Below, piece after piece: positions 1,015-62,976 of a DNA stretch of 64,000 nucleotides. The stretch is taken from assembly GCF_003991135.1 (NCBI RefSeq), contig NZ_CP016379.1:2418001-2482000 (forward strand), in the 5' to 3' direction. Source of the DNA: Anoxybacter fermentans. Lineage in GTDB: Bacteria; Bacillota; Halanaerobiia; DY22613. The notes beneath the pieces are model-generated. The model did no database searches. It saw only the letters and a list, made by a program, of their open reading frames with translations, and had not been told where the DNA came from. How positions within the stretch are numbered: position 1 is the stretch's first letter; each line of letters begins with the position of its first letter. The translations under genes were made by a program, and so were the position numbers.

Positions 1015-1026
1015 AATAGACACCCC

Positions 1027-33348: not shown

Positions 33349-33376
33349 CTTTAGCCACCTCACATACTATTTTCTA

Positions 33377-34030: not shown

Positions 34031-34048
34031 CGCCCTAAAAAAATACTT

Positions 34049-35230
34049 TTATATTTTAAATTTTAAATCGAAAAAATGTTTTTTTATTAAATTTTGGTTT
34101 AAGTCAATTTTTTTAAGCGTTTCTTTTATTCTATAAGATATATTACCTGCACCCTCTATATCATACGGATTTTTACAATTGCTAATTTTATCCTTGAATT
34201 CTCGCGATAACCCTTTCATAATTCCTCTCATAATCTCATCATGACTACATCCAACATCTATTACATTTTCAGCTCTGATTCTTCCCTTCTGTCGATCACC
34301 AATATTTACAACTGGAATTTTAAAACTCGGACCTTCTATGATTCCACTTGACGAATTGCCTATCATGATGTCAGCATATTTCAATACAGATAAGTATCTC
34401 AACTGTCCTAAGTTACTAACAAATATAGCCCGATTACTATTTTTATCTACAAATTGCTCAATTTTTTCGTTAATTATCCGCCCATAAGTATCGGAATTAG
34501 CTTTAGTAAAAATAATTTTAAAATCAAATTTTTCAAGAACATCTAAAATGGTTTGAATCTGTTCTTCTGTTGTATTAGGCTCCAAAGTAACAGGATTATA
34601 AGTAAAAATAGCCGTAGTATCTTCGAATTTAAAATTTAAAGTTTCTTCCAATTGCTCCTTTGATAGTAATTTGAGTCTATAAATATTATCTAATCCTGGT
34701 GCACCATGATTAAAAACTGTTTCCGGTCTTTCCCCCATTTGAATAACCCGTCTAGCATACTCTTCGGTAACCGGAAAATGAATTGAAGCTAATTTTGTAA
34801 TCGCGTGGCGAATCTGATTATCTATAACTCCTTCGGTCAATTCTCCACCATGAATATGGGCTATGGGAATTTGAGCAACCATGGCTGCTATTGAAGCAGC
34901 CAGAATTTCATACCGGTCTCCCAAAACAACAATAATATCTGGCTTTATATCTTTAAATGCTTCAGAAAAACTAATACACCCTAATCCAATAGATTTAGAA
35001 ATACCAACTTCAGTATCTGAAGACATTAACATTTCCACTTTTTTTGTTATTTTAAAACCATCTTTCTCAATCTGCCTATAAGTAAGACCAAATTCGGGAG
35101 ATAAATGCATTCCGGTAACAAGAATTTGAAGTTCTAAATTATGATCATTTTGAATTTCTTTCATTAGCCAGTATAGATGACCATAATCCGCCCTTGTTCC
35201 CGTAACCACACAAATTTTTCTTTTACTCAC
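34049..35230 (-). CDS. legG: Hydrolysing NDP-sugar 2-epimerase, LegG/NeuC type
   Basis: A 393-residue GT-B-fold epimerase of the NeuC family. The N-terminus is KICVVTGTRADYGHLYWLMK (the family TGTRADYG signature); PDIIVVLGDRYEILAASIAA and AHIHGGELTEGVIDNQIRHA follow; the C-terminal half has IGNSSSGIIEGPSFKIPVVN. It releases the nucleotide and inverts C2 to give the free 6-deoxy-mannosamine derivative that NeuB/LegI condenses with pyruvate phosphate. It overlaps legI by 8 bases, consistent with consecutive steps. Confidence 0.9.
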   Translation of the reverse strand: MSKRKICVVTGTRADYGHLYWLMKEIQNDHNLELQILVTGMHLSPEFGLTYRQIEKDGFKITKKVEMLMSSDTEVGISKSIGLGCISFSEAFKDIKPDIIVVLGDRYEILAASIAAMVAQIPIAHIHGGELTEGVIDNQIRHAITKLASIHFPVTEEYARRVIQMGERPETVFNHGAPGLDNIYRLKLLSKEQLEETLNFKFEDTTAIFTYNPVTLEPNTTEEQIQTILDVLEKFDFKIIFTKANSDTYGRIINEKIEQFVDKNSNRAIFVSNLGQLRYLSVLKYADIMIGNSSSGIIEGPSFKIPVVNIGDRQKGRIRAENVIDVGCSHDEIMRGIMKGLSREFKDKISNCKNPYDIEGAGNISYRIKETLKKIDLNQNLIKKHFFDLKFKI

Positions 35231-36263
35231 TTTTTAAATCCTCCCATTTCAATACTTCGTCACGTCTTATATACCGGTTAACTTTAAAACCTAAAATTTT
35301 GTCTATAAATTTTGGTTCAATACCATCTCCCGGTCTTTTAATCTCTAACAAGTCTCTACTTAATACCTGTCCTTTTTTAATATCCCTGGCAGCAACAATA
35401 CTTTTTCTCGCAACGGGAAGATTTTTTATTTCAGATTTAGCAGGTCTTTTGATACCATCCCCTAATGCTTTTTCTACATTTCTAATACTTTGAACTAATA
35501 ATTTTAATTCATCAGGTTCTAAAGAAGCCTTATGATCAGGGCCCTCCATAGATTTATCTAAAGTAAAATGTTTTTCAATAACCTTTGCACCCAAAGCTAC
35601 TGCTGCTATTGGTATTTCTAAACCTAAAGTATGATCTGAATATCCAACGGGAACTTTAAAGGCATCCCTTATAGTTAACATAGCACTTAAATTCACTTCT
35701 TCAATTGGAGCTGGATACTCAGTTACACAATGAAGCACCACTACATCTCTATTCCCCGTAGAATAAATTGTTTCTAAAGCCTCATATATTTCAGCTATAT
35801 TTGCCATCCCCGTAGATAATATTATAGGTTTTTGCTTTTCAGCAATATATTTTAAAAAAGGCAGATTGGTTATCTCTCCTGAAGGAACTTTAAAAAATGG
35901 TATATCTAATTCATCTAATAAATCACAGCTTTCAAAATCAAAAGGGCTGGACAAAAACATAATTTTTTTTTCTTTACAATAATTCATCAATTCTACATGA
36001 GATGTTTTATCCAATTCCAATTTCTTAATCATTTGATATTGACTCTCTGATTTTTTAGTAGTTTTCAGTTGATAATCCGCCTTCGGTGCACCTTGAGAGA
36101 CAAGTTTTTCAGTTTTGAAAGTCTGAAATTTAATTGCATCTACACCCGCTTCAGCAGCAACATCAATTAATTTCTTAGCAATATTAATATCACCATTATG
36201 GTTAACTCCCGCTTCAGCTATAATAAAAACGGAAGAGAGATCAGTAAAATAATTTTTTACCAT
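35223..36263 (-). CDS. legI: Nonulosonic acid synthase, LegI/NeuB type
   Basis: PEP-dependent C9 acid synthase, 346 residues. The TIM-barrel domain begins FIIAEAGVNHNGDINIAKKL and has AGVDAIKFQTFKTEKLVS and ILSTGMANIAEIYEALETIY; HTLGLEIPIAAVALGAKVIE and KHFTLDKSMEGPDHKASLEP are classic. A C-terminal antifreeze-like SAF domain follows (about 282-346, AARDIKKGQVLSRDLLEIKR). The family fits sialic, legionaminic or pseudaminic acids; the neighbours LegB/LegC/PtmE favour legionaminic acid. One base separates it from legF. Confidence 0.92.
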   Translation of the reverse strand: MVKNYFTDLSSVFIIAEAGVNHNGDINIAKKLIDVAAEAGVDAIKFQTFKTEKLVSQGAPKADYQLKTTKKSESQYQMIKKLELDKTSHVELMNYCKEKKIMFLSSPFDFESCDLLDELDIPFFKVPSGEITNLPFLKYIAEKQKPIILSTGMANIAEIYEALETIYSTGNRDVVVLHCVTEYPAPIEEVNLSAMLTIRDAFKVPVGYSDHTLGLEIPIAAVALGAKVIEKHFTLDKSMEGPDHKASLEPDELKLLVQSIRNVEKALGDGIKRPAKSEIKNLPVARKSIVAARDIKKGQVLSRDLLEIKRPGDGIEPKFIDKILGFKVNRYIRRDEVLKWEDLKSE

Positions 36264-36959
36264 CTAGTCCCTCTCCTTCATTAAAATTTCTGCAAGATGC
36301 CAATCTATGATGTTATCAATATCAACAGACCTCTCTTTTGGCATAATATAAGGAATTGTCCTACCTACATAAAAAGAACGTTCCTTTACCAGTAGGATAC
36401 TTTCTGCTATAAAAATTGCTCCATTTAAGCTGTAAACTTTAGGTAAGTCCTGGCGACGTGTAATATGCTGTCCCTCCTCTGTATAAGGAACTACCCGGTT
36501 ATCTATAATCTTCTTTAACCAAAATGGATGCTTATCTACTTCGCATAAACTTACTAAAGATTCGGCATTATGCTCTAATAGTTTCTCTATTGCTCCATCG
36601 ATATCTTTAACAGTTCTTAAAGGTGAAGTTGGTTGTAATAAGACAGTGAATTTAGGCCAATAATCCTCATTCATCTTAAGCCAATTTAAAGCATGAATAA
36701 TAGCATCAATACTGGAAGCTTCATCAGTTGCCAGCTCTTTAGGTCTCATAAAAGGAACTTCAGCACCATATCTTTTTCCAACCTCAGCAATCTCCTCACT
36801 TTCTGTTGATAAAACAACCCGATCTATAAATTTGGATTTTTTAGCCTCTTCGATGGTGTATGCCAGTAATGGCTTACCATTTAGTATTTTTATATTTTTC
36901 TTAGGAATTCCTTTAGATCCTCCGCGTGCTAAAATAAGGGCCAGAAAATTTGCTGACAT
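36264..36959 (-). CDS. legF: CMP-nonulosonate cytidylyltransferase, LegF/NeuA type
   Basis: Activates the nine-carbon acid to its CMP derivative, the donor for Maf enzymes. The N-terminal CTP-binding motif is FLALILARGGSKGIPKKNIK; LAYTIEEAKKSKFIDRVVLS and LLQPTSPLRTVKDIDGAIEK follow; DIDNIIDWHLAEILM is near the C-terminus. About 231 residues from the ATG at 36959 (AGGGAGG upstream). The open frame extends to 36983 inside legC but that start lacks a site. It abuts legI. Confidence 0.92.
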   Translation of the reverse strand: MSANFLALILARGGSKGIPKKNIKILNGKPLLAYTIEEAKKSKFIDRVVLSTESEEIAEVGKRYGAEVPFMRPKELATDEASSIDAIIHALNWLKMNEDYWPKFTVLLQPTSPLRTVKDIDGAIEKLLEHNAESLVSLCEVDKHPFWLKKIIDNRVVPYTEEGQHITRRQDLPKVYSLNGAIFIAESILLVKERSFYVGRTIPYIMPKERSVDIDNIIDWHLAEILMKERD

Positions 36960-36960
36960 A

Positions 36961-38085
36961 TCATTTTTCCTCCCTAATTTCACAAATAGTATCTACAACC
37001 TGTTGTATCTCTTCTAACGTAATTCCAACAGAACACGGAAGATTCAGACCTCGTTCCCAAAGCCAATCTGCCACATGAATATCTGCATCATATTTTCTAA
37101 ACATTGGCATGTGATGGAGTGGCTTAAAAAAGGGTCTGGCCATAACCCCTCTTAAATTAAGTTTTTCTAACAAAGTTTTAGAATTGATTCCAAATTCTTT
37201 TTCATCAATTAAAATCGAATATAACCAAAAACAGTTATATGCCCATTCCATCTCTGGATTGACTGTAATCCCCGGAATCTTGCTTAATAATTTATTATAA
37301 GTCATAGCAGTAGTTCTTTTGCTTTCGATAAATTCTTCTATATTCTCAAATTGAGCTACACCCAGAGCAGCCTGTATATTAGTTAATCTATAATTATATC
37401 CAATATTGTTATGAATAAAGTTTTCCGGATCATCTTTCGCCTGTTGTATCAAATAGCGCGCATGATCAGCCCACTTCTTATTGTTGGTAACTAGCATTCC
37501 ACCTCCACCGGTGGTAATTAATTTGTTACCATTGAAAGAAAAACAGGCAATATCACCTAATGAGCCTACCATTCTACCTTTATATTTAGATCCTAAAGCT
37601 TCAGTGGCATCTTCTATCAATTTTATGTCATACTTTTTACAAACTTCAGCTATTGGATCAATATCGGCGGGATGACCATACAAATGAACCACAATTACTG
37701 CTTTCGGTTTATTACCTTTCTTAACCATCTGCTCGATTTTATCTATTGTTTTTTCAGGATCTATATTGAAAGTATTAACTTCAGAATCAATAAATACAGG
37801 TTCTGCACCACAATAACAAATAGGATTCACAGATGCAATAAAAGTTAAGGAAGGTACCAAAACTTTATCACCTGGCCCTACCCCTAATACCATTAAAGCT
37901 GTATGTATGGCCGCTGTTCCATTTACCGTTGCCACACCATAATTTACACCAATATAATCACTTACTAATTCTTCAAACTTATTTACATACGTACCTACCG
38001 AAGAAACCCAGTTGGTATCAAGACAATCCTTAATATATTTCCACTCATTACCTTTTATATATGGTTCACAGAGAGGTATCCGCAT
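36961..38085 (-). CDS. legC: PLP-dependent sugar aminotransferase, LegC type (DegT/DnrJ/EryC1 family)
   Basis: At 374 residues it belongs to the sugar aminotransferase family. The PLP lysine lies in ACFSFNGNKLITTGGGGMLV; PVFIDSEVNTFNIDPEKTID and VVHLYGHPADIDPIAEVCKK match the cofactor-binding half; YNYRLTNIQAALGVAQFENI is typical of the C-terminal region. It would convert the 4-keto product of LegB to the 4-amino sugar. LegC-like family members are usually labelled as acting in nonulosonate synthesis. It follows legB by 16 bases. Confidence 0.9.
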   Translation of the reverse strand: MRIPLCEPYIKGNEWKYIKDCLDTNWVSSVGTYVNKFEELVSDYIGVNYGVATVNGTAAIHTALMVLGVGPGDKVLVPSLTFIASVNPICYCGAEPVFIDSEVNTFNIDPEKTIDKIEQMVKKGNKPKAVIVVHLYGHPADIDPIAEVCKKYDIKLIEDATEALGSKYKGRMVGSLGDIACFSFNGNKLITTGGGGMLVTNNKKWADHARYLIQQAKDDPENFIHNNIGYNYRLTNIQAALGVAQFENIEEFIESKRTTAMTYNKLLSKIPGITVNPEMEWAYNCFWLYSILIDEKEFGINSKTLLEKLNLRGVMARPFFKPLHHMPMFRKYDADIHVADWLWERGLNLPCSVGITLEEIQQVVDTICEIREEK

Positions 38086-38101
38086 AATTTTATACCTACC
38101 T

Positions 38102-39088
38102 TTAAATATTATAGATTTCGGGTTTGTAAAATTTTAGATTATCTTTAAACCAATTAATAGTTTCGAGTAATCCTTCGCGAATATTATATCTGGGTCTCCA
38201 ATCTGTTAATTTCAAAATTTTTGTATTATCACACCATAGCCGTTCTACTTCACTCTTTTCAGGTCTAATTCGTTGTTTATCCGAAATAATTTCAACTTCT
38301 TCTCCAATCAATTCAATAATTAAATCGACTGTTTTTTGCATACTGATTTCATAATTTGAGCCAATGTTAATCACTTCACCTAAAGTATTATCACTTTCAG
38401 CAATCTTAATAAATCCCTCAACTGTATCTTTTACATAATTAAAATCTCTTGTGGGATACAGATTTCCCAACTTAATCTTCTTTTGACCTGCCAGAATTTG
38501 TGTTATAACCGTTGGAATAATTGCCCTTGCAGATTGCCTTGGACCATACGTATTAAATGGCCTGGCTATAGTAACTGGAAGACTAAAGCTGCGAAAATAA
38601 CTGATAGCCAGTTGGTCTGCTGCAATTTTGCTTGCTGAATATGGAGATTGGCCAACTAATGGATGTTTCTCATCAATGGGAACATATTGGGCAGTACCAT
38701 AGGTTTCACTTGTAGATGTAATGACTACTTTCTCAATATTAAGCTGTCTTGCAGCCTGGAGTACATTATATGTACCTTCAACATTTGTTTTAATATATGC
38801 CAGAGGTGATACATATGAGTAGGGTATTCCAATTAAAGCTGCTAAATGAAATACCACATCTACATCCAGCATTGCATTATATACTGCATCAAAGTCTCTA
38901 ACATCACCTTGATAGACCTCTATTTGATCTTTAACTGGCGATGTTTCTAACCAACCCCAATTATTCTTAGAGTTGTATCTAACAAACGCTTTAACCCTGC
39001 TTCCTAACTCAACTAATCTTTCAGTCAAATGTGATCCAATAAAACCGGCTGCGCCGGTAACGAGAACTTTTTTGTTTTTTAGTAGCAT
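38102..39088 (-). CDS. legB: NAD-dependent sugar 4,6-dehydratase, LegB type
   Basis: A 328-residue extended short-chain dehydrogenase, first step after nucleotide activation. The cofactor motif is VLVTGAAGFIGSHLTERLVE (GxxGxxG); the catalytic triad pattern appears as TSTSETYGTAQ and YSASKIAADQLAI (YxxxK); ARPFNTYGPRQSARAIIP follows. It would form the 4-keto-6-deoxy sugar from GDP- or UDP-GlcNAc. Start ATG 39088. It follows the FliT-like gene by 37 bases, so the glycan cluster is embedded in the flagellar operon. Confidence 0.9.
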   Translation of the reverse strand: MLLKNKKVLVTGAAGFIGSHLTERLVELGSRVKAFVRYNSKNNWGWLETSPVKDQIEVYQGDVRDFDAVYNAMLDVDVVFHLAALIGIPYSYVSPLAYIKTNVEGTYNVLQAARQLNIEKVVITSTSETYGTAQYVPIDEKHPLVGQSPYSASKIAADQLAISYFRSFSLPVTIARPFNTYGPRQSARAIIPTVITQILAGQKKIKLGNLYPTRDFNYVKDTVEGFIKIAESDNTLGEVINIGSNYEISMQKTVDLIIELIGEEVEIISDKQRIRPEKSEVERLWCDNTKILKLTDWRPRYNIREGLLETINWFKDNLKFYKPEIYNI

Positions 39089-39125
39089 TTAACTTTACCC
39101 CCAATTTTACTGTCTGAATTTCTTC

Positions 39126-39542
39126 TTACCTCTGTCTATTTAAAAAGAAACCTTGCCTACCTTCATTACCGTCATAAGCAGATTGGATTTTTCGTGCCTT
39201 TTTAACTAGACTATATTCTTTAGATAGATATTCTTTTAAAGAAGAAATTTTATCTTTTATCTTTTCATCTATTTCTTGAATTGTGGTAAAAATCTCCCGG
39301 AGTCGGATGATATCATCTCCATGCTCAGTAGACATAGCCTTAGTCAGATCACATTTAGACAAATAGATCGAATCAAGATAATTAATTTCTGCAATCAATT
39401 TTGTACGAAATCCCATTTTTTCTTCTAAATCCCTTAAATCATCACTGTCCAACATATTGTAAATATCATCAGTAATCTTTAAAAGCTTTTCACAAAGAGC
39501 CAGTTTTTGTTCTAAATAAGATTTACACAGAGATAAATTCAT
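39126..39542 (-). CDS. FliT-like flagellar export chaperone candidate
   Basis: A small (138 residues), all-helical, charged protein downstream of fliS, the usual place for fliT. The N-terminal part (MNLSLCKSYLEQKLALCEKL) and the central helices (DLRDLEEKMGFRTKLIAEIN) resemble the FliT/FlgN class of export chaperones, but similarity by eye is low. FliT would guard the cap protein FliD. Confidence rests mostly on position, size and helical make-up. Confidence 0.55.
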   Translation of the reverse strand: MNLSLCKSYLEQKLALCEKLLKITDDIYNMLDSDDLRDLEEKMGFRTKLIAEINYLDSIYLSKCDLTKAMSTEHGDDIIRLREIFTTIQEIDEKIKDKISSLKEYLSKEYSLVKKARKIQSAYDGNEGRQGFFLNRQR

Positions 39543-39565
39543 TTTTTATCCCTCTCTAGAAAATA

Positions 39566-39961
39566 TTAATCAGTCCTATAATTTTCTTTTCTAGCCAGTT
39601 TAATTACTTCTTCCCAGGTCTGACGAAAATCAACTAACATATTTAAAACTTCATTGATCATCTCACTGCTTTTCTTTATATTCGCAGTAATTAATCTACG
39701 AAACATATAATCATAAAGAAGGTATAAATTCTGAGCAATTTCTCCTCCTGATTCCCGGTCTAAAGTAATCATCAGTTCATTAATTATTGCCTGGGCTTTG
39801 GTAATATTAGTATTAACCTTTTCATAATCTTTTTCCTCTAAACCCTGTAAGGCAGTCTTGCAAAATTTAATAGCTCCATCAAATAACATAAGAATTAATT
39901 TACCCTGACTTGCAGTCTCTATCTGGGTCTTTTGATATGCTTGATAAGGATTATTCAACAT
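39566..39961 (-). CDS. fliS: Flagellin export chaperone FliS
   Basis: Chaperone for newly made flagellin. The 131 residues show the FliS signature: NPYQAYQKTQIETASQGKLI, then LMLFDGAIKFCKTALQGLEE and NLYLLYDYMFRRLITANIKK. It lies 16 bases after the second Maf gene and 23 bases before the FliT-like gene. Here it is separated from fliD by the two Maf genes and an unknown gene, an unusual insertion between fliD and fliS. Confidence 0.95.
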   Translation of the reverse strand: MLNNPYQAYQKTQIETASQGKLILMLFDGAIKFCKTALQGLEEKDYEKVNTNITKAQAIINELMITLDRESGGEIAQNLYLLYDYMFRRLITANIKKSSEMINEVLNMLVDFRQTWEEVIKLARKENYRTD

Positions 39962-39977
39962 TTCATCTTTTCCCTCC

Positions 39978-41846
39978 TTAAGAAACCTGGCTTATCTTCT
40001 CAGAAAAAGTTTTTTCTGTTTTTTCAACCATTTCTAGTACAATTTTTGAAATTTCATTTAAAGCATCATAAAGTTTTCGATTAGAACGTATAATCCGGGT
40101 ATTTACCTCTTCTTGAGTCTCCCCCGGTTTGCCTTTAAATTCTGGCCCATTTAAAATGGGTAAAACCAATGGTTGAAAAATAATTTGCAAAAATACTTTT
40201 CCATTCTCAAATTTAACAATATCTTTATCTATCTCATCTAACCGACAGAGAATCTGTTGAATTCTTTTTTGATTTGTTTCTGGACATCTGAATAATTCCT
40301 GTAACTTGTCAACAAATTTCAAACCTTTTTTTGCCTTCTGGTTAAACTGCAATAATTCTTCTTTGAGATTTTTTAAAGCCCTTAGAGCTTTATTTACCAT
40401 CTCCTCTTCACACGGTTTTTGAGTTTCTAAAAACTCCTGAATTGTTTCGGTAATTGGATATTCCTTCTGACAGTATTTTTCTATAACTTCAGCAAGGGGC
40501 ATAATTTGTGTACCGCGAATTTTTGCTCCTCCCTCAGTAGCATCTATTATCAATCGATCTTTCGTTTTAGCAATCTGATTTTCAAACCAGCGTAGAAAAA
40601 CTAAAAAACTTCTACTGCTTAAAACTTGTCTACCATAAATATCCTCTACATAGACTTCGCTAATATCTCCTTTAGCTTCAATACGTCTTTTTTCATATAT
40701 AGTTCCCTGTGCATGACTACGACCATCTGTATAGGCTAAATCCTGACCAACAAAGATAATTGGATTTCCACCAAGTTTACGTGCAATATCAAAAGTTACA
40801 TTAGCAATAGAAGCTCCAACCAAAATATTTCCTATAGATATATCCATCTGTTTTTCAAACCAGCTTAAAAACATATTACTAACATTTGCAGTAATAAGAG
40901 GGCCTTTATAATCTTTTAGTATATCAGGATAAATAACAGGATCAAAAATAAGTGGTATATCCTGAACATCTAAGCCCCTAAATATTTCATAATTCATTGC
41001 CGATCCATCGAAAGAAGTAATTGCATCAGGCTTAATTCCATGTCGTTTCAACGCTTTATATGCTGTTCCTACACATAATAATACAGCCTTCCCTTTTAAC
41101 TCCTTTAGCAGATGAATATTTTTATTCAAAGATGGACCTGCTGATATAATAATTATTGGTACATCTTTAAATCTATCAAATAACCCTTTAATACCTGGAT
41201 TGGTTATTGCAAAATATAAGTTTTTAAAAAAATTATCGGTCCATTGTTTACCAAATATAGTATATGTATTGACTCTAAGAATATAAAATCCAATAAGTTC
41301 ATTAAGAATTTTCTCGAGATCAGCACATTCTTTTGCAAAATTTGTACTATAAATGTTAAAAGAAACAAAAGTAAAGTTATCATAATAATTTTGGATGATG
41401 ATAGTAATTTGAGTTTCAATTACTTTTTTCTCTTCAGCAATTGATAACATAAAAATTGGATTAGTAAATAACCATTCCAAATCTCGATTCTTAAGAGCTA
41501 AACAGAAAATTTCTTTATTAGGTTCAATAACAAGAATGCGTTGAACATCTTTCTTTTTACTCAACTCAAATAAATGATAACCTAATGCAAAACCAAAGAC
41601 AATATAAGATTTCTGTTCTTCAACTTTTTCTGCCCATCTTTTACCTTCCTGGGTAGGATTATATGCACTGGTCAAAAATTTTATTTTATCTCCATCCATA
41701 AATTGCAAAGTCGGTTCACCATTACGACTTTTGACCACAGAAAATTTACTTCCTATATCTTCTTTAGATAGCCATTCACAAACCCGTTCATATAATCTTT
41801 TATCAAAGTCCTTTAAAAGATTCAAATTTTTTTCCAAAAAATTCAT
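39978..41846 (-). CDS. Motility accessory factor (Maf-2), DUF115 nonulosonate glycosyltransferase
   Basis: The 622-residue protein has the MAF/DUF115 domain (about 200-420) with PIIIISAGPSLNKNIHLLKE, GKAVLLCVGTAYKALKRHGI, then GGNPIIFVGQDLAYTDGRSH. Family members transfer pseudaminic or legionaminic acid to Ser/Thr of flagellin. The N-terminal 200 residues have a MAF_N-like layout, and a C-terminal helical tail (about 430-622) is longer than in Maf-1. It follows Maf-1 with a one-base gap and precedes fliS. Acceptor and sugar are inferred from context. Confidence 0.88.
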   Translation of the reverse strand: MNFLEKNLNLLKDFDKRLYERVCEWLSKEDIGSKFSVVKSRNGEPTLQFMDGDKIKFLTSAYNPTQEGKRWAEKVEEQKSYIVFGFALGYHLFELSKKKDVQRILVIEPNKEIFCLALKNRDLEWLFTNPIFMLSIAEEKKVIETQITIIIQNYYDNFTFVSFNIYSTNFAKECADLEKILNELIGFYILRVNTYTIFGKQWTDNFFKNLYFAITNPGIKGLFDRFKDVPIIIISAGPSLNKNIHLLKELKGKAVLLCVGTAYKALKRHGIKPDAITSFDGSAMNYEIFRGLDVQDIPLIFDPVIYPDILKDYKGPLITANVSNMFLSWFEKQMDISIGNILVGASIANVTFDIARKLGGNPIIFVGQDLAYTDGRSHAQGTIYEKRRIEAKGDISEVYVEDIYGRQVLSSRSFLVFLRWFENQIAKTKDRLIIDATEGGAKIRGTQIMPLAEVIEKYCQKEYPITETIQEFLETQKPCEEEMVNKALRALKNLKEELLQFNQKAKKGLKFVDKLQELFRCPETNQKRIQQILCRLDEIDKDIVKFENGKVFLQIIFQPLVLPILNGPEFKGKPGETQEEVNTRIIRSNRKLYDALNEISKIVLEMVEKTEKTFSEKISQVS

Positions 41847-41847
41847 T

Positions 41848-43176
41848 TTAAGCCCCCATTTCCTTTTTCAATGCTTCTTGTAATAGGGAATCTATTTGAA
41901 TATGTGTATCTAATTCATTTTTTACCTGCTCTAAAGACAGAATCTGTGTTCCCTCAATATAAGCTCCACCTTCAGTTGCATCAATAAATTGTATATGTGG
42001 ATTTTGAAAAATCTTATTTTCTATCCATTTTAAGTATATTGACAAATTCTTGCCAGTTGATATCAACTCTCCATTTATACCTTTCACCCAACGACTATTC
42101 AACCTGGGTTTGAATTGGTAGGAAGTACTACCCTCAACATGAGATTTTCCTTCGGTGTAAGCTAAATCCTGGCCTACAAAAATAATTGGATTCCCTCCAA
42201 AATAAATAGCCAACTCCAAAGCAGTGGTCGCTACCGATCCACCTGTCTCTATCAATGTAAAAGAACATTTACGGGCCAGATTTTCACTTTTTTCAAATCC
42301 CTTTTGAAATAAAACAACTTTAGGCCCCTTGTAATTTTGGACAATCTGAGGTTGAATAGTCGGAAAGAAAAAAAGCGGAATTTCAAGATCAAGATTTTCT
42401 ATTTGCCTACATACACTTAGATGGGGATCAGTAATAACCATACAATCAGGTATAAGCCCCATCTTTACAAGAAGTTTAACTACACTTCCTACAGCAAAAA
42501 TTAAAGCTTTACCTTTCAATTCTAGTAAGTGATGTTTGTTGTATTTTAAAGATGGACCTGCAGATACGATCACAATTGGTATATCTTTAAATTTATTTTT
42601 AAAGGGTTCAATAAAATAATAATCTTTGATTCTTAAGATATTCTCCTCAAAATTCTTTTCCATGACCTCACTATAGCGATCAAAAGTTTCCCTTTTGATT
42701 TCCCAATCTTCTAATAAATGCCTGATAGGTAAACAATTTTCAGGAATTATTTTTAAAGAAGGTTGATGAATTAACAAAAGAAATTCATCTTTATTATATT
42801 CAGTTATAAGATTTGAGATAAAAGATTTAACCTTATTTAAGTTATCGGAAACCAAAAAAATAAAACCTCTTTTTTTGTATTCAGAGATTGAAAATACTTG
42901 TTTAGTATATTTCAAAATTTTAGGATTCATCTCCAGAACATATACTTTTTTATTTGGAGTTAAATATTTTTCTAATTCTTTTAAGTGATAACCCATTCCC
43001 AGACCATATACCAATATTGCTTTGGCTTTATCGATCTCCTTTTTACGCGAATGAATAAATTTAGCTGCTTCACGTAACGGTGCATAAATACTATGAAGAC
43101 GAATCTCCCGCTCATTTTCTCTATAACCAAGTGAAGGAGTTCCCTCTCGAGTTTCAATTAAAAAAAACTCTCCCAT
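41848..43176 (-). CDS. Motility accessory factor (Maf-1), DUF115 nonulosonate glycosyltransferase
   Basis: About 442 residues from the ATG at 43176, which has AGGAG ten bases upstream and avoids overlap with the preceding gene; the open frame begins at 43230. The DUF115 core has IPIVIVSAGPSLKYNKHHLL, GKALIFAVGSVVKLLVKMGL and GGNPIIFVGQDLAYTEGKSH, matching Maf-2 closely in motifs but shorter at the C-terminus. Two different Mafs suggest two acceptor sites or two acceptor proteins. It should act on unfolded or FliS-bound flagellin in the cytoplasm before export, as reported for Maf proteins. Confidence 0.88.
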   Translation of the reverse strand: MGEFFLIETREGTPSLGYRENEREIRLHSIYAPLREAAKFIHSRKKEIDKAKAILVYGLGMGYHLKELEKYLTPNKKVYVLEMNPKILKYTKQVFSISEYKKRGFIFLVSDNLNKVKSFISNLITEYNKDEFLLLIHQPSLKIIPENCLPIRHLLEDWEIKRETFDRYSEVMEKNFEENILRIKDYYFIEPFKNKFKDIPIVIVSAGPSLKYNKHHLLELKGKALIFAVGSVVKLLVKMGLIPDCMVITDPHLSVCRQIENLDLEIPLFFFPTIQPQIVQNYKGPKVVLFQKGFEKSENLARKCSFTLIETGGSVATTALELAIYFGGNPIIFVGQDLAYTEGKSHVEGSTSYQFKPRLNSRWVKGINGELISTGKNLSIYLKWIENKIFQNPHIQFIDATEGGAYIEGTQILSLEQVKNELDTHIQIDSLLQEALKKEMGA

Positions 43177-43181
43177 TACTA

Positions 43182-43778
43182 TTACACTCCTGCTAATTGG
43201 TCTAAAATTTGCATAAAATGTTGATTCCATTTCTCTAAGTTTGGAATCAATTCATATTCAATTAGGTCACTAATTAAAACATAATCTTCATTCTCCCATG
43301 CGGTCATTAATTCTTTAATGATTTGCTCAAATCCTGCCTTATCCTCATGGTAATTCCCACTATTCTTTTGAAATTGATCCATTGATAAAATATATACATC
43401 CAATCCTACCAGGATGTGATTAACCCAATTTAGTCCATCAATACTCTGTTCAAATAGTTTAATCCCTTTATTCTGCTTTCCTTCACGAAAAGAAAGGGAA
43501 GATTCATTTAAGCCTTCTAACAACCTGGGAAGATAATTTATACCCTCAATCAAACCTTCAATTACCAATTCTACAGGAGACCTGATCTCAATTTCTATTA
43601 AATCAATATCTTCTTCTGTTTGACCAGGTAAAATTTCATTTACATACTTACCGTCTATCTTCAACTGTAATATTTTATTTTCTTTTTTACATTCAATACG
43701 CAAGTCTTCTAAAACTTCATGCAACATCTCAATTGATCGAATTGCTTTATATAATTCGCCATTTACAAATACTTTCAT
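43182..43778 (-). CDS. Unrecognised 198-residue protein between fliD and the Maf genes
   Basis: I do not recognise a family. The N-terminal 70 residues look alpha/beta (MKVFVNGELYKAIRSIEMLH; KILQLKIDGKYVNEILPGQT), the rest is all-helical (about 75-198) with GLIEGINYLPRLLEGLNESS and KLFEQSIDGLNWVNHILVGL. No signal peptide or membrane span. It has a proper ribosome binding site (GGAGG) and sits directly after the fliD terminator and five bases before Maf-1. A partner or chaperone for the Mafs or for flagellin is a fair guess; nothing in the sequence proves it. Confidence 0.65.
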   Translation of the reverse strand: MKVFVNGELYKAIRSIEMLHEVLEDLRIECKKENKILQLKIDGKYVNEILPGQTEEDIDLIEIEIRSPVELVIEGLIEGINYLPRLLEGLNESSLSFREGKQNKGIKLFEQSIDGLNWVNHILVGLDVYILSMDQFQKNSGNYHEDKAGFEQIIKELMTAWENEDYVLISDLIEYELIPNLEKWNQHFMQILDQLAGV

Positions 43779-51871: not shown

Positions 51872-52282
51872 TTATTCTTTTCTCAACCACTCGGCAGTAT
51901 ACATTTTAGCACTTTTTCTAGTATCAGATTTTTCAACTTTTTTCTCTTCCAGTCCCTCGGTTAATCCTTTAAACAAACGTTCACTACATTTTTTACAATA
52001 ACGCCCTTCTTTTATAGGTTCACCACAACTTTCACAGGTTAAAACATTTTCAAAATTTAATTCTCCTGCTGTAATACGTCCCGATTTAATAAATTTGATA
52101 ATCCGTTTCTTAGAAACTCCCGTCATTTTATGAATTTCATCTATACTGGCGCTAGCTTTATCCCAAAGGTATTCTTTGACTTTTTCAAAGTCCTTTTCTT
52201 CTTCTTCATAGCACTCACTACAAATATTCATAGTTGGATGAACAAAAACTTTTCCACACTCTATACAATTTTTTAATTGCAC
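51872..52282 (-). CDS. yvyF: YvyF-like flagellar region protein (TIGR03826)
   Basis: About 136 residues with two zinc-ribbon-like CxxC pairs (CIECGKVF, ICSEC; then TCESCGEPI, YCKKCSERL) flanking a helix-turn-helix-like centre (DKASASIDEIHKMTGVSKKR; IIKFIKSGRI). This matches the YvyF family next to flgM in Firmicutes; a regulatory role is suspected. The start is GTG at 52282 after AAGGGG; the open frame begins at GTG 52291, which is too close to that site. Confidence 0.85.
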   Translation of the reverse strand: MQLKNCIECGKVFVHPTMNICSECYEEEEKDFEKVKEYLWDKASASIDEIHKMTGVSKKRIIKFIKSGRITAGELNFENVLTCESCGEPIKEGRYCKKCSERLFKGLTEGLEEKKVEKSDTRKSAKMYTAEWLRKE

Positions 52283-52382
52283 TATAATCACCCCTTATAT
52301 CTTCTTTTGCGGGATATTTTATATATTCGCCAACTAAATTTCATATTCCTGCCTGATTAACGAGAATAGGGTTTTATTTATT

Positions 52383-54535: not shown

Positions 54536-54566
54536 TATTTTACCCCCATTTCTTTATTCATTTAAG

Positions 54567-54596
54567 ATTATACTGCAAAAAGCTAATTTTGAGCAA
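54567..54596 (-). promoter_or_regulatory. Candidate promoter at the edge of repeat copy A
   Basis: On the minus strand TTGCTC (54596-54591) lies 18 bases upstream of a perfect TATAAT (54572-54567). The -35 and spacer are inside the repeat; five of the six -10 bases come from the flanking sequence. It points at the aminotransferase, whose ATG is 32 bases away. Confidence 0.45.
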
Positions 54597-54780
54597 CATA
54601 GAAATTTTTCGCTAAACTATCTTAGCGAGATTTCCGACGAAATAAAACCTCATCACAGGAGGTGATGAGCTAATCAAGGGCCAGAAGGGCCCTTTGATTA
54701 GGAAGTCTTATTTCGACGGAAATCGAGCTTTAGATGGTTCAAAAAATTTCTCAAGAAGCGAAAAATTAGCTTTTTGCAGT
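54572..54780. repeat. 209-bp palindromic interspersed repeat, copy A
   Basis: Begins ACTGCAAAAAGCTAATTTT and ends with its inverse complement AAAATTAGCTTTTTGCAGT. The arms pair along most of their length. The centre forms two hairpins: CTCATCAC/GTGATGAG and CTAATCAA..TTTGATTAG. No coding potential. Copies B and C have the same length. It looks like a MITE-like or REP-like non-autonomous element. Confidence 0.92.
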
Positions 54781-54884
54781 TTAATTATATTTATTATATC
54801 AAAATCTATAGAAGCATGGAAGGAAAATAAAGAAAAACTGCCGAATTTAATTATACGGACTATTGAAAGGGGGCCTTATAAGGT

Positions 54885-55661
54885 ATGAAATCTCATGTTC
54901 CGATATTTCTGCTAATCATCTTTTTATTTACCAGTGTAGTCCATGGAGAGATAGGCCATCCTGAAGCAAACTTAAAAGAAGGGTATCTTATCGTTGAAGG
55001 TACAGGAGTAATACCCACAAATGTTTCTGATTATGCCCAGGCTATAGCTTTAGCACGACTTGCTGCCAAAGTAGATGCTCAAAGAAATCTATTAGAGATT
55101 ATCTCCGGTCTTAAACTGAATAGTGAAACTTCTGTGGTTAATCTAATAGCCCATGATATAGTTCGTACCAAAGTAGAAGGAATGTTACAGGGAGCACAAT
55201 TTATCCCCGAAAACGAATATATTCAAAATGGAATTTACCATCTGAGACTAAAAATTAATGTCAAAGATATTAATTCCAGCATCTCTCCAACTCCGCAAAC
55301 AGAACTCTCCATTATTCCTAAAGAAGAATATACCGGTCTAATTATTGATGCCAGAGGGTTTAACATTACTTCTCCCAACTTATTGAAGATTCGAGACCTT
55401 AAGGGAAATTTAATCTATTCAGCCGATCGTGCCCTTTATCAACCTACTGACTCCATCTTTAAAAAGAGTAAAAATGACGCTTTATCCGATCCACGGATTG
55501 GTGATAACCCTCTTATTATCAGTGCCATTAAGATTGATTCTTATGATGACTCAACCCTTTTCGTCTCTGAAGGGGACGGACGTCTGATTTTAACTTCTCT
55601 CGAAAATACCGATGTATTTTTATTATCAAAAATAGTAGTAATTACCGGGGGGGCTGAATAA
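54885..55661 (+). CDS. Secreted LPP20/FlgP-like protein
   Basis: The 258-residue protein has a signal peptide (FLLIIFLFTSVVHGE) without a lipobox cysteine. After it, GYLIVEGTGVIPTNVSDYAQ then AIALARLAAKVDAQRNLLEI and GLKLNSETSVVNLIAHDIVR form the LPP20-like domain, the family of the Vibrio outer-membrane flagellar protein FlgP. The C-terminal half (about 145-258) has GLIIDARGFNITSPNLLKIR, ISAIKIDSYDDSTLFVSEGD and no recognised fold. Its stop overlaps the next start (TAATG). It is transcribed away from the flagellar locus. Possible role in the outer-envelope part of the flagellum. Confidence 0.7.
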   Translation: MKSHVPIFLLIIFLFTSVVHGEIGHPEANLKEGYLIVEGTGVIPTNVSDYAQAIALARLAAKVDAQRNLLEIISGLKLNSETSVVNLIAHDIVRTKVEGMLQGAQFIPENEYIQNGIYHLRLKINVKDINSSISPTPQTELSIIPKEEYTGLIIDARGFNITSPNLLKIRDLKGNLIYSADRALYQPTDSIFKKSKNDALSDPRIGDNPLIISAIKIDSYDDSTLFVSEGDGRLILTSLENTDVFLLSKIVVITGGAE

Positions 55662-57064
55662 TGATTAAAAAATGTAAAATAAGTTTACTCATCACATTAG
55701 TTTTAGTCTTTATTTTTACTATCTTCACTTTTATAGTTTTTTCTGCTGAAAAAGTAAAAACGATTCGAGTAGAAGCTACAGGTCAGGCTCCCCTCCAATC
55801 AGATCGGGGATTAACAAAGGAAATGGCTCTTAAAGATGCCTTCAGAAATGCTTTAGAACAGGCATTAGGGATCCGGATTACAGCAGCTACTGTTATGGAA
55901 AATCTAACCATTACCTCAGATCTGGTAATTAGCCAGACCTTTGGGCATTTGCTTTCATATGAAATTATTAATGAATGGGAATCTGAAGATAAATTTTTTA
56001 TCACCATTTCTGCTGAAGTCAGTTCCGATGCCAGTTGGTGGGCTGAGTTTGAAGGAACTATGGATGTTATTCGTCTTCATTTAAAGGACCCTCTTTTGCA
56101 AGAAAGTTATACCATTCCAGACCAAATTCAACTGGGTGCTCTCTACTCTGATCCGCTAATTGTAATTCCTGTCAAAGGTAAAGATTATTACATATTGGCT
56201 ATTCATGCAGAGAGTAATCAGATTGTGTGGAAAAAGAAACTTCCTGATAAATTAACTACTCCACTAGTCACCGATGGAAAATGGCTTATTGCTATTACAA
56301 CAAACCAGGTAATTTGTATCAATCTTCAATACGGCTGGATTAAATGGAGACATTCTTTAAAAGAACCTGTTTATCAAACTCCAGCTATTTCAAATGAAAC
56401 CATCTATATTACTACTCAAAAAGGAAGCCTTTTGGCACTGGATTTAAAAAAAGGAAAGCTTCTCTGGCAAAATCGGACTCTGAGTAGTTTCCTTACTGCA
56501 CCAAAGGTTGCTGGAGATTATCTTTATTTTGCAGATGGTGATGGTTATATTCATGCTTTCGATTTAAGTATTCAGAGCCGGCTTTTTAAAAAATTGATCA
56601 GTCCAAAATTAAAAGTAGCTCCCACGCCCACTCGGATTTTGACCTATCTTAGTTGGAGTGATCAATATGACAGAATAGCAGCCATAAACTCTGTTGATGG
56701 AACCATAATCTGGGACTTTAAAGGCCAGCCTTCTTCTACCAATACTTTAGTTCTTTCTCCTTATTTGGCTCAAGATAAAATTCTCTCTGTTTTTATAAAT
56801 TCAAAAGAAAGTATAATTTATCTTCTTGATGCCAAAACCGGATATCAATACTGGAAACAAAAACTTTCTGTACCTGTAACCGAAATTGCAGGTGTAGGAA
56901 ATGGACTAATTATCCTCAATACCTGGCGTGGAATCCGAATTCTGGATCTAGAACATGGCAGCCTTCTCTGGAGCAGTAAAGGATCCGGTCTTAAAACCCA
57001 ACTTTTAGCCAGTGAAGACCGACTCTATTATCTTCATGGGCAAACACTGGATATTTATCACTAA
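55661..57064 (+). CDS. FlgT-N-like domain fused to a PQQ-type beta-propeller, secreted
   Basis: At 467 residues it has an N-terminal signal/anchor (ISLLITLVLVFIFTIFTFIV). Next, a domain at about 32-125 resembles the N-terminal part of the H-ring protein FlgT: TIRVEATGQAPLQSDRGLTK, EMALKDAFRNALEQALGIRI, IISAEVSSDASWW-like end. The rest (about 145-467) is a PQQ/BamB-type propeller with repeats such as VICINLQYGWIKWRHSLKEP, LLALDLKKGKLLWQNRTLSS and LDAKTGYQYWKQKL. Translationally coupled to the preceding gene and followed by a strong terminator. The fusion is unusual. Confidence 0.7.
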   Translation: MIKKCKISLLITLVLVFIFTIFTFIVFSAEKVKTIRVEATGQAPLQSDRGLTKEMALKDAFRNALEQALGIRITAATVMENLTITSDLVISQTFGHLLSYEIINEWESEDKFFITISAEVSSDASWWAEFEGTMDVIRLHLKDPLLQESYTIPDQIQLGALYSDPLIVIPVKGKDYYILAIHAESNQIVWKKKLPDKLTTPLVTDGKWLIAITTNQVICINLQYGWIKWRHSLKEPVYQTPAISNETIYITTQKGSLLALDLKKGKLLWQNRTLSSFLTAPKVAGDYLYFADGDGYIHAFDLSIQSRLFKKLISPKLKVAPTPTRILTYLSWSDQYDRIAAINSVDGTIIWDFKGQPSSTNTLVLSPYLAQDKILSVFINSKESIIYLLDAKTGYQYWKQKLSVPVTEIAGVGNGLIILNTWRGIRILDLEHGSLLWSSKGSGLKTQLLASEDRLYYLHGQTLDIYH

Positions 57065-57138: not shown

Positions 57139-57161
57139 ATTATAACAGATCTTAAGATTAA

Positions 57162-57370
57162 ACTGCAAAAAGCTAATTTTGAGCGACATAGAAATTTTTC
57201 GCCAAATCATCTTAGCGAGATTTCTGACGAAATAAGGCCTCATCACAGAAGGTGATGAGCTAATCAAGGGCCAGGAGGGCCCTTTGATTAGGAAGCCTTA
57301 TTTCGGCAGAAATCGAGCTTTAGATGATTCGAAAAATTTCTCAAGAAGCGAAAAATTAGCTTTTTGCAGT
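57162..57370. repeat. 209-bp palindromic interspersed repeat, copy B
   Basis: Same orientation as copy A and about 93% identical by eye; nearly all differences are transitions. The flanks extend the terminal inverted repeat to TTAAACTGC on both sides. One difference keeps pairing: A-T in copy A becomes G-C in copy B in the AAATAAGGC/GCCTTATTT stem. It lies between two convergent genes. Confidence 0.92.
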
Positions 57371-57463
57371 TTAACCATAATATAGATTAATACAAAATGT
57401 TATCTACAACCTGCAAAAAGTATAATTCCCTGAACATTAAAAAAGCTGTCATACTGGACATCA

Positions 57464-59335
57464 TTAAGAACCAATATTAATTGCAATGGCTTTAAAATCC
57501 CCTTCAATGAATTCTAAAATGACTTCTACGTCTGAAACTACTCCCATTTTTTCGGTTATCTCTAATTCTTCTGACTGGCCTAAATAATCTCCCGCATCAA
57601 TTTTTAAATTTTGATTTACGTCAATCCAGCCAATAACCCGGCCCTTCCCGGGTCTGACTTTTGCTAACTCAAAACTACCATTTACTTCAACCTGAACTAC
57701 CGGACTTTTCAATTGAGCCCATCCACCTTCAATAGAGCCAAAAAAGACATATGTGTGTTGAAAACGATTCAAAGCAGCAAAGGCATCTACCAGACCATAC
57801 CCTGTCTCTTCATCATAACCCGGTGGGCCCAGGTCTCTAGCAGTTTCACGTAAAATCAAACGAATATAATCCGGGTCTTTTATTCCATGGGCAATGAGAA
57901 GAGCCGCGACTCCACTCACATGGGGGGCAGCCATAGATGTACCCTCCATATAATCATAAGAATCTCCCACCAGACTATCCCAAATAGTACTCAACACCTG
58001 GGCTTTTCTTCCAAGCCTACTATTCCCACCTGGAGCCATCAATTCCAATCCTTTTCCATATGATGAATAATAAGTACGTTCTCCATCTGGCCCTACTGAA
58101 CCCACTGCAATCACTTCTGGATAAGCTGCTGGATAAAGCAAATAATCACTTCCAGTATTTCCCGCTGCTGCAACCAATAAAATCCCCGCTTGAGCGGCTT
58201 TTTTAATTGCATAATGAAGATCAGGAAAATCATAAGATGGATTATATCGATCATATGTTCCAAAACTCATGTTAATCACCTGAGCACCATTTTCAATGGC
58301 AGCATCAATACCTTTCAAGATATGATAAATGGTCGCACCAGTTTCAGTAAAAACCCGAATTGGTAAAATAGATACATCAGGGGCAACACCTACTACACCA
58401 TATTGATTTGAAACAGCCCCAATAATCCCCGCCACATGCAGTCCATGTGCATTTAAAGCCGGATTCTCCTCATTATTACCAGTTACATCGATTGCCGGTA
58501 ATAAATTTGGCAAAAGATCAGGATGGGCGCTGGTATAAAGGGTATCTAATAAAGCTACCACAACCCCAGAACCGGTAGAATACTTCCAGGCAGAACTGAC
58601 ATTGAGCATTTGCATATTCCAGAGCTCAGGCCAATATTCATCTTCTGGCTCTATCCCTAAAGATTGAATCATCCGATTTGGGGTAATAAATTCCACATCT
58701 TCAGAAATTTCTGCCATAAATTTTTCACTATTTACCCCGGGCTTGAGTCGGATGGTATAAAATTCACCACCCGACTCATAGACTATCTCTCCCTTTCCTT
58801 TTAATTTTTGTACCAACCACTCTTTACCCCTATGGGTTACCAGATTAAATTCACCTTCGACGATTCTGGATTCAAATTCCAAAGGCTTAACTTCAGAAAG
58901 GCCTGTTTTATTATTCACGGTATTAATTTCCGGCAGACTAAATTCCCGATAAATCCTGCCGGTAATCTTTTCACTAGCAGGCGCCAGATATAATGGTGGA
59001 AGATGCACCGTTTGAGAGTAACGCCCATCAATGGCATGTTCTAAAGTATAGGTCTCGTAATCTGAATGCTTAAATACCAGTCTTACTATACCCTTAGTGG
59101 GAGAAACTTGTACCGAAAATCGCCCATCTGCACCTGTTCTCCCAACTAACTCTCCAGTTTTTGTGTAGATTTCTACACCTTTGATAGGCTGTTGAAGAAC
59201 CGAACTTTCCCGGACCTCTCCCATGAATCGGACAGTATAGAGGTGGATCCCTGAAGAAGTGCAACCGCTTAAGAAAATACAGATAATAATAAGCAAAGTA
59301 AAGATTCTTTTAAAATGGCCAGCCACTTTTGCCAC
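57464..59335 (-). CDS. Subtilisin-like serine protease (S8), lipoprotein
   Basis: The 623-residue protein has a lipobox LSGC with C25 as lipidation site. An N-terminal carboxypeptidase-regulatory/SdrD-like beta domain (about 35-115: QPIKGVEIYTKTGELVGRTG) is followed by a propeptide-like part (about 155-225) and the S8 domain (about 240-530). The triad is D264 (VALLDTLYTSAHPDL), H297 (NAHGLHVAGIIGA) and S467 (MEGTSMAAPHVSG), with oxyanion N393 (AAAGNTGSD). DTL and HGLH differ from the usual DTG and HGTH but keep the catalytic residues. It follows a possible outer-membrane protein gene by three bases. Confidence 0.9.
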   Translation of the reverse strand: MAKVAGHFKRIFTLLIIICIFLSGCTSSGIHLYTVRFMGEVRESSVLQQPIKGVEIYTKTGELVGRTGADGRFSVQVSPTKGIVRLVFKHSDYETYTLEHAIDGRYSQTVHLPPLYLAPASEKITGRIYREFSLPEINTVNNKTGLSEVKPLEFESRIVEGEFNLVTHRGKEWLVQKLKGKGEIVYESGGEFYTIRLKPGVNSEKFMAEISEDVEFITPNRMIQSLGIEPEDEYWPELWNMQMLNVSSAWKYSTGSGVVVALLDTLYTSAHPDLLPNLLPAIDVTGNNEENPALNAHGLHVAGIIGAVSNQYGVVGVAPDVSILPIRVFTETGATIYHILKGIDAAIENGAQVINMSFGTYDRYNPSYDFPDLHYAIKKAAQAGILLVAAAGNTGSDYLLYPAAYPEVIAVGSVGPDGERTYYSSYGKGLELMAPGGNSRLGRKAQVLSTIWDSLVGDSYDYMEGTSMAAPHVSGVAALLIAHGIKDPDYIRLILRETARDLGPPGYDEETGYGLVDAFAALNRFQHTYVFFGSIEGGWAQLKSPVVQVEVNGSFELAKVRPGKGRVIGWIDVNQNLKIDAGDYLGQSEELEITEKMGVVSDVEVILEFIEGDFKAIAINIGS

Positions 59336-59338
59336 CTC

Positions 59339-59860
59339 CTATAGCTCAAATCCGATCCAGAGAGCCATTCCATCTTTATTTCCCAAAAGGTTACCTATTC
59401 CCACTTTACCCCTGATCCATTTCTTTAAAAAACTAACCTCCAGTTGATATCTTAAAAAACTTCCAACAAGATCATCTATCATCACATCTGCACCGAGAAT
59501 TATTTTACCAAAAGAAACCGGAATTTGAGCTCTTAGACCATTTCTAAAAAAAGAATTATTTGTCTTTAGAAGTCGATATTCTTCCAAACCTACAAGACTC
59601 CAGATTTCCCCGTAGGAATGACCTGAAAGACGAAAATCAAAACCCACTCCCACCTGTTGATAATAATCACTAATCTTAAAAATCTCCAGATAAAAACCCT
59701 GTGTATCAACAGGGAGAATTTCAATTCTCCATAAATAACCATTCTCGTTTTTTAGAAAAATCTTATTTCCATTTAAAATAATAGAACTTGCTTCTCCTAC
59801 ACTGGAAAGTAAAACAATACAAATAATCACCAGACAGAGAACTAATTTATATTTATCCAT
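59339..59860 (-). CDS. Secreted beta-rich protein, possible small outer-membrane barrel
   Basis: I do not recognise the family. The 173-residue protein has a signal peptide (LVLCLVIICIVLLSSVGEAS) and alternating hydrophobic strands: WRIEILPVDTQGFYLEIFKI, GVGFDFRLSGHSYGEIWSLV, KIILGADVMIDDLVGSFLRY, and it ends with GMALWIGFEL, an aromatic-rich last strand as in outer-membrane barrels. With the FlgH/FlgI evidence for an outer membrane, a small barrel is plausible. It lies three bases upstream of the lipoprotein protease, and 26 bases after phosphoglucomutase. Confidence 0.6.
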   Translation of the reverse strand: MDKYKLVLCLVIICIVLLSSVGEASSIILNGNKIFLKNENGYLWRIEILPVDTQGFYLEIFKISDYYQQVGVGFDFRLSGHSYGEIWSLVGLEEYRLLKTNNSFFRNGLRAQIPVSFGKIILGADVMIDDLVGSFLRYQLEVSFLKKWIRGKVGIGNLLGNKDGMALWIGFEL

Positions 59861-61617: not shown

Positions 61618-61881
61618 ACCAGCTCATCCCCTTTCTCTAATTTTCAGACTTTGATACTCATTGTTAATTTTTACAAATTGACCAGAAATAATACCATGAT
61701 TTTACTGCAAAAAGCTAATTTTTCACTTCAAAAAAAATTTTTCGAACCATCTAAAGTTCGATTTCAATCAAAATAAGGCGCACTAATCAATGGGCCCTTC
61801 AGGCCCTTGATTAGCTCATCATATCCTCATATGAGGCCTTATTTCGACTGAAATCTCACTAAGATAAGTTGACGAAAAATT
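61618..61881. other. Gap between pgcA and manA, largely repeat copy C
   Basis: The first 86 bp (61618-61703) contain the AT-rich leader of pgcA with a purine-rich ribosome binding site; the remainder is the palindromic repeat that runs into the manA coding end. No gene is seen. Confidence 0.65.
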
Positions 61882-61912
61882 TCAATAGCGCTCAAAATTA
61901 GCTTTTTGCAGT
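61704..61912. repeat. 209-bp palindromic interspersed repeat, copy C (inverted)
   Basis: Opposite orientation to copies A and B and more diverged, but again 209 bp with ACTGCAAAAAGCTAATTTT ends. The AAATAAGGC/GCCTTATTT stem and the CTAATCAA..TTGATTAG hairpin are kept, so pairing is conserved. Its right end encodes the last codons of manA, and its left end lies 86 bp upstream of pgcA. Confidence 0.92.
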
Positions 61913-62976
61913 TTAATCATATCATTTAATCCACCTACTTTACCCAAATCAGCTTTACTATAACCCTTAGCTAACAAAGGTGTAATAATCTCATGCTCAA
62001 GATCTGGTATATAGCTTTTTAAGATTTTTACCTGACCTGTAAGCTCAAAATTTCCCAAAGTAGCAGGGATTACCCATGTCTCTCCTTTAGCCAGCCGATA
62101 ATTATCGGTTTTTATCTTTAATTCACCACTTCCCTCTAAAACCATCCAGATCTCGAAACGTTCCGGACTAATCTGGCCTTTCATCCTTTCAACTTTTAAT
62201 TCTTCCACTGCAAAATAAGGGCAAGCGGTAAGCAGACGGCTCTGCCATCCATCTTTTTTTAGTATAATTCCGGGATGAGGATTGATACCAGTCCGGTTGA
62301 AGTCAATTACTTCTAATGCTTCTTTAATATGTAGTTTACGGGGTTTTCCATCCAACCCTACCCGATTCCAATCATAGACACGATAAGTAGTATCAGAGTT
62401 CTGCTGGATCTCAGCAATTCTAACTCCTTCAAGAATAGCATGAATGGTTCCTGCGGGAATATAAAAAGCATCTCCCGGTTTGACAGGTACTTCATTCAAA
62501 CATTCATGAAGAGTCCCTTTTTCAATACTTTTAGCAAACTCAGACCGGGTTACTCCAGGCTTTACGCCCATAATTAATTTTGCACCGGGTTCTGCATCCA
62601 ATACATACCACATCTCAGTTTTACCCAATTCTCCAGGCTTAACCTGCCTGGCATATTCATCATCAGGGTGAACCTGAACCGAAAGGCGATCACTGGCATC
62701 CAGAAATTTGATCAACAAAGGAAAAGGGTCAAACCCTTCCCTGGTTATCCGTTTACCTAAAATTTCTTCAGGATACTTTTGAATGACCTCTTTAAAGGTT
62801 TGCCCTGCGAAATCTCCATCCTCCACTATACTCATTTCATCAGGACGACAGGTTAGCTCCCAACTCTCGCCAATAAGCTTTTCTCCGGGCAAATCGCGAC
62901 CAAAAGCCTCTTCTAACCAACGTCCGCCCCAGATTTTTTCTTTATAGATTGGTTTACATCTAAATGGATAGACCAC
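61882..62976 (-). CDS. manA: Mannose-6-phosphate isomerase, class I
   Basis: Cupin-fold zinc isomerase interconverting fructose-6-P and mannose-6-P. Typical parts: FRCKPIYKEKIWGGRWLEEA, SWELTCRPDEMSIVEDGDF, the zinc site LSVQVHPDDEYARQ, and YIPAGTIHAILEGVRIAEIQ. About 364 residues from the GTG at 62976, which has GGGAG eight bases upstream; an upstream GTG at 62985 touches that site. The family C-terminus is reached around SKADLGKVGGL; the final nine residues (LQKANFERY) and the stop codon come from repeat copy C. Confidence 0.93.
   Translation of the reverse strand: MVYPFRCKPIYKEKIWGGRWLEEAFGRDLPGEKLIGESWELTCRPDEMSIVEDGDFAGQTFKEVIQKYPEEILGKRITREGFDPFPLLIKFLDASDRLSVQVHPDDEYARQVKPGELGKTEMWYVLDAEPGAKLIMGVKPGVTRSEFAKSIEKGTLHECLNEVPVKPGDAFYIPAGTIHAILEGVRIAEIQQNSDTTYRVYDWNRVGLDGKPRKLHIKEALEVIDFNRTGINPHPGIILKKDGWQSRLLTACPYFAVEELKVERMKGQISPERFEIWMVLEGSGELKIKTDNYRLAKGETWVIPATLGNFELTGQVKILKSYIPDLEHEIITPLLAKGYSKADLGKVGGLNDMIKLQKANFERY

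Follow-up and report, generated by a model that had tools for sequence, protein, structure and literature searches.

The window that we analyzed is a 64-kb stretch of the 3.56-Mb, single-contig genome of Anoxybacter fermentans. It contains two adjacent forward-strand genes, here termed P1 and P2, and a large set of flagellar genes on the opposite strand. The relevant features, in window positions, are as follows.

54885-55661, forward strand: P1, a secreted protein of 258 aa with a FlgP/LPP20-type SHS2 domain followed by a Tp0624-D2-type domain; signal peptide, no lipobox
54960-55262, forward strand: FlgP-type SHS2 domain of P1 (residues 26-126), including the segment aligned with the ring hairpin of Campylobacter FlgP
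55323-55646, forward strand: Tp0624-D2-type domain of P1 (residues ~147-254; aligned by profile with residues 137-262 of 5jir_B, E=4.1e-11)
55659-55663, forward strand: TAATG, in which the P1 stop overlaps the P2 start, one base being common to both ORFs
55661-57064, forward strand: P2, a secreted or membrane-anchored protein of 467 aa in which an SHS2 domain of the FlgT_N/FlgP type is joined to a BamB/PQQ-type β-propeller
55769-56023, forward strand: FlgT_N domain of P2 (residues 37-121; Pfam PF16548, a marginal 29.0 bits against a cutoff of 28.8)
56141-57058, forward strand: BamB/PQQ-type β-propeller of P2 (residues ~161-466; Pfam PQQ_2, 100.7 bits)
51872-52291, reverse strand: zinc-ribbon gene, the member of the flagellar cluster nearest to the pair (zinc-ribbon matches all under curated cutoffs)
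442-1023, reverse strand: flgH, for the L ring (Pfam FlgH)

The TAATG overlap suggests that P1 and P2 are translationally coupled. In G001, the sole other genome of the family that we compared, the overlap is 4 nt, and the proteins are 44% (P1) and about 54% (P2) identical to those of the window. The gene order is also retained there, with a yvyF-like gene, udk, P1, and P2 followed by a convergent subtilase gene and one for a small barrel-like protein. The subtilase of the window (57464-59860, reverse strand), which likewise adjoins a small barrel-like protein, carries a signal resembling that of lipoproteins and, by a weak Pfam match, a carboxypeptidase-regulatory-like N-terminal part; a subtilase lipoprotein is also found near the FlgT_N genes of another genome (G049, L067). 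The pair is flanked by two direct copies, 93% identical, of a palindromic MITE-like repeat of ~220 nt (54562-54789 and 57152-57379); a third copy (61704-61918) is inverted (84%), a partial copy lies near a pgsA-like gene (L004), and an Rfam search with the first two copies returned no match. We discarded the notion of P1-P2 as a mobile cassette bounded by two 228-nt repeats, because there are further copies elsewhere, none was detected at the G001 locus, and the genes there are in the same order.

The initial annotation had placed the pair next to a locus for the L and P rings. This is correct in that the zinc-ribbon gene, which we take to be yvyF-like, is the last member of a continuous flagellar super-cluster and lies 2.6 kb from P1-P2, a position kept in both genomes of the family. 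However, flgH and flgI themselves, although part of the same super-cluster, are ~54 kb away, and flgI (Pfam FlgI), directly after flgH, is just beyond the window edge. That Halanaerobiales possess flgH, flgI, and flgA has been published previously (PMC5007114). By eye, no σ28-like site was seen upstream of the pair, whereas the flagellin gene has one; a search with the pattern TAAA-N13-17-CCGATA overlooked even the flagellin promoter and thus says little. Within the flagellar cluster, a reverse-strand block (32260-43230) with sugar-nucleotide and NeuB/NeuC-like genes and two motility-accessory-factor-like proteins suggests, on reading alone, flagellin glycosylation.

As a single sequence, P1 matched no Pfam family. 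Nonetheless, the assignment of P1 as FlgP/LPP20-like in the initial annotation was borne out by a phmmer match of residues 26-126 to residues 61-160 of PDB 9hmf_C (1.8e-9) and by a profile of 13 P1 family sequences, which recovered Campylobacter FlgP (9hmf) with E=1e-23 and Vibrio FlgP with 1.6e-6. In the flagellar motor of Campylobacter jejuni, whose periplasmic scaffold is the subject of the 9HMF entry, FlgP, the protein of the basal disc, bears a ring-forming β-hairpin insert between the helix and the second strand (PMC12222027); chain C, labeled "Lipoprotein, putative," is presumably FlgP, judging from that work and its similarity to the other FlgP chains. By sequence, P1 shares with this protein an SHS2 domain with a long stretch between the helix and the second strand, and the profile alignment is gap free where FlgP has the hairpin; the AF2 model is partly below pLDDT 50 there, with no hairpin visible. 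Unlike C. jejuni FlgP, P1 is not a single small domain, since it has the added Tp0624-D2-type domain. In a Foldseek search with the P1 model, the best match was 5jir (Tp0624, both domains, 2.3e-8), followed by 9hmf FlgP (9hmf_A, 1.7e-4, with a low-confidence model) and then Helicobacter pylori Lpp20 (5ok8). As the AF2 models of P1 and P2 were built on only 4 or 5 sequences each and have a mean pLDDT of 66 to 68 (66 for P1), we treat these fold matches as supporting evidence only. Tp0624 of Treponema pallidum is a protein carrying an OmpA-like domain (PMC5104382); P1 resembles its D1-D2 tandem, D2 also by profile, but lacks the OmpA-like third domain. Outside the window, the same genome encodes a second protein with a Tp0624-D2-type domain at G000:C1:1090317-1090721 (L004), downstream of the pgsA-like gene. 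No lipobox was found in P1, P2, or the 12 homologs from the class that were checked, and P1 has no cysteine in its first 45 residues, in contrast to the FlgP proteins of Vibrio and Campylobacter, which have a lipobox (PMC7990780).

P2 does begin with the FlgT-N-like domain ascribed to it, albeit barely over the Pfam cutoff. A profile built from 12 sequences of the P2 N-terminal domain family reached FlgP (9hmf) with 2.6e-11 but FlgT (3w1e) only with 0.029, and one of full-length propeller-less FlgT_N relatives also reached FlgP and not FlgT. Because the profile favors FlgP, "FlgT-like" is best regarded as a Pfam label for a domain whose sequence is no farther from FlgP than from FlgT. The remainder of P2 agrees with the initial reading: FlgT_M and FlgT_C are absent, and their place is occupied by the propeller, whose AF2 model most resembles structures of BamB (TM of about 0.7 at most); the fold search with this model returned propellers alone and so speaks only to that part of P2. 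The FlgT_N-propeller fusion was observed solely in the two genomes of the window's family, and no propeller occurs in the other FlgT_N proteins of the neighborhoods examined. The relatives of P2 are mostly 370 to 410 aa in length and combine FlgT_N with a different C-terminal part, in one case with an LpoB match.

FlgO, FlgP, and FlgT are flagellar outer-ring proteins best known from Proteobacteria and Campylobacterota. We found that relatives of P1 and P2 are adjacent in six families (f5, f11, f18, f31, f40, and f12) and that a trio of CsgG/FlgO-like, FlgT_N-like, and FlgP-like proteins recurs in several families of diderm Bacillota, with CsgG/LpoB or FlgO partners over Pfam cutoffs in genomes of f5, f11, f31, f40, and f12. 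At the Halanaerobium loci, an additional gene gave CsgG, LpoB, and FlgO matches over the cutoffs; FlgT_N, LPP20-like, and FlgO proteins are encoded together in these relatives, as in the Vibrio H ring. P2 differs from that system in its propeller and its lack of FlgT_M/FlgT_C, and no CsgG or FlgO partner was seen among the immediate neighbors of the pair in the window. The description of such a module as new to diderm firmicutes is not quite accurate, as Chaban et al. had in 2018 already searched with a FlgP sequence of the diderm firmicute Acetonema longum (PMC5758724).

In a sample of 59 Halanaerobiia genomes, including Halanaerobium, Orenia, Halanaerobacter, and Halonatronum, flgH is present in 47 and flagellin in 43. 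Two-domain P1-type proteins, with a FlgT_N-type gene close by, are found in both genomes of the window's family (f1), 3 of 12 of Halanaerobium (f5, g12), and all 8 of f11, whose named members are Orenia, Halanaerobacter, and Halonatronum. The expected co-occurrence with flgH was recovered in one direction: within the class, each of the 13 genomes that carry the pair also has flgH (p=0.035 by Fisher's test, ignoring kinship and with only three families), but the pair is missing from 34 of the 47 flgH genomes. Flagellar neighbors were noted solely for the window's family and Halanaerobium. In Halanaerobium saccharolyticum (G023, L065), a FlgT_N-FlgP-FlgO trio is followed, after 264 bp, by a flagellin gene of the same orientation, and in G021 the distance to the flagellins is about 20 kb. 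The f11 loci have CsgG-like and TPR-CsgG proteins, a DUF5723 protein, and carboxypeptidase-regulatory-domain lipoproteins as neighbors, with no flagellar genes in the stretches read.

Across the phylum, FlgT_N was detected in 16 of 399 sampled genomes. A set of 16 genomes, namely, the 13 FlgT_N genomes outside the class plus G036, G049, and G000, was tested for Omp85 and flgH: Omp85 is present in all 16 (counted in FlgT_N genomes only) and flgH in 12. While G036 is only 76% complete, three genomes that are 99 to 100% complete (G200, G277, and G300) have neither flgH nor flagellin and yet encode FlgT_N-type and full-length two-domain P1-type proteins. Further carriers of P1-type proteins belong to f31 (g50 and g232), f12, and f59. 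In G300, a complete genome, a protein with CsgG/LpoB/FlgT_C matches, a FlgT_N-like protein, and a FlgP-like protein are encoded consecutively on one strand in an apparent operon (L145), the latter two being recovered with our profiles at 1.6e-23 and 1.5e-51 while falling under the Pfam cutoffs. Hence, the pair types are not limited to flagellated genomes, although neither do they occur mainly in genomes without flagella. In a tree of P1 proteins, those of f1 group with f5 (support 80/70), which fits a flagellar sub-branch, and those of f40 group together (99/97). The f11 proteins fall in two parts, with G054 and G055 beside f31; long branches make the placements unsure. This split indicates that exchange or paralogy has occurred.

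Because relatives with the same trio occur in flagellum-free bacteria, we favor, at somewhat better than even chances, the proposal that P1-P2 is a lineage-specific, propeller-bearing variant of an outer-membrane-linked ring or scaffold module of diderm Bacillota for which a flagellum is not required. P1-P2 would thus be the local form of the CsgG/FlgO-like, FlgT_N-like, and FlgP-like envelope module. Both proteins are predicted from their signal sequences to be exported to the periplasm, and a location at the outer membrane appears probable. Their SHS2 domains, which appear to keep the inter-subunit β-hairpin stretch, may by homology with FlgP assemble into a ring or disc beneath the outer membrane. 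In the window's family, the propeller that replaces the C-terminal part of the FlgT_N-like relatives could offer a surface to which another envelope protein docks. Since some genomes keep the module without a flagellum, it probably serves in the first place as a scaffold for the outer membrane or peptidoglycan or to support a trans-envelope structure, and flagellar use here would be a special case. This proposal draws on the homology of the SHS2 domains to ring-forming FlgP, the trio partners, the ubiquity of Omp85 in the genomes tested, the non-flagellated carriers, the envelope-type neighbors in f11, and the Tp0624-type domain. Counted against it are the flagellar neighbors in the window's family and H. 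saccharolyticum, the f1-f5 grouping, flgH in every pair genome of the class, the lack of an adjoining CsgG/FlgO gene in the window, and the reliance on homology for ring assembly. Across the phylum, the module is independent of the flagellum; in the window's lineage, the flagellum may or may not use it.

The initial annotation had proposed an outer-ring module bracing the flagellum. Of this proposal, the kinship of the proteins with FlgP and FlgT_N, the exchange of the other FlgT domains for a propeller, and the diderm Bacillota connection are supported; the flagellar role itself is hypothetical. If P1-P2 were dedicated to the flagellum, it would form a collar around the L and P rings like the H ring or basal disc, with the propeller as its outer or inner face. 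Such a collar, which we regard as a serious possibility with less than an even chance, would readily explain the hairpin stretch, the conserved position beside the super-cluster, the H. saccharolyticum trio close to flagellin, the flgH co-occurrence in the class, and the grouping of f1 with f5. It is harder to reconcile with the persistence of the trio in one flagellum-free genome and of both protein types in two others, the many flgH genomes of the class that lack the pair, the f11 loci, the location of the pair on the strand opposite to the flagellar genes, the absence of a lipobox, and the lack of a visible σ28-like site. A role of P2 in outer-membrane protein assembly as a BamB-like accessory, partnered by P1 and with SHS2 as a mere tether, is very improbable: Pfam PQQ_2 spans many unrelated propellers, and although the propeller is closest to BamB by sequence and fold and a P2 query finds no other match in its genome, P2 is fused to an SHS2 domain, scores far under the cutoff of the NCBIfam BamB equivalog model TIGR03300 (92.4 against 285.2 bits), and has no lipobox, and relatives of the module lack the propeller altogether.

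Returning to the envelope module, we tentatively raise the further possibility, itself on the less probable side, that diderm Bacillota possess a flagellum-independent periplasmic ring module of CsgG/FlgO-like, FlgT_N-like, and FlgP-like proteins, the last with a Tp0624-type domain; that the H-ring and basal-disc proteins of flagella originated from it or alongside it; and that the window's family rearmed it with a β-propeller. No other FlgT_N protein examined shows the domain swap of the FlgT_N-propeller fusion. More generally, the FlgO/FlgP/FlgT-like trio of diderm Bacillota, present even in one flagellum-free genome, suggests an envelope module that is untied to flagella, and its carriers in this group are organisms in which the flagellar and envelope readings can be told apart.
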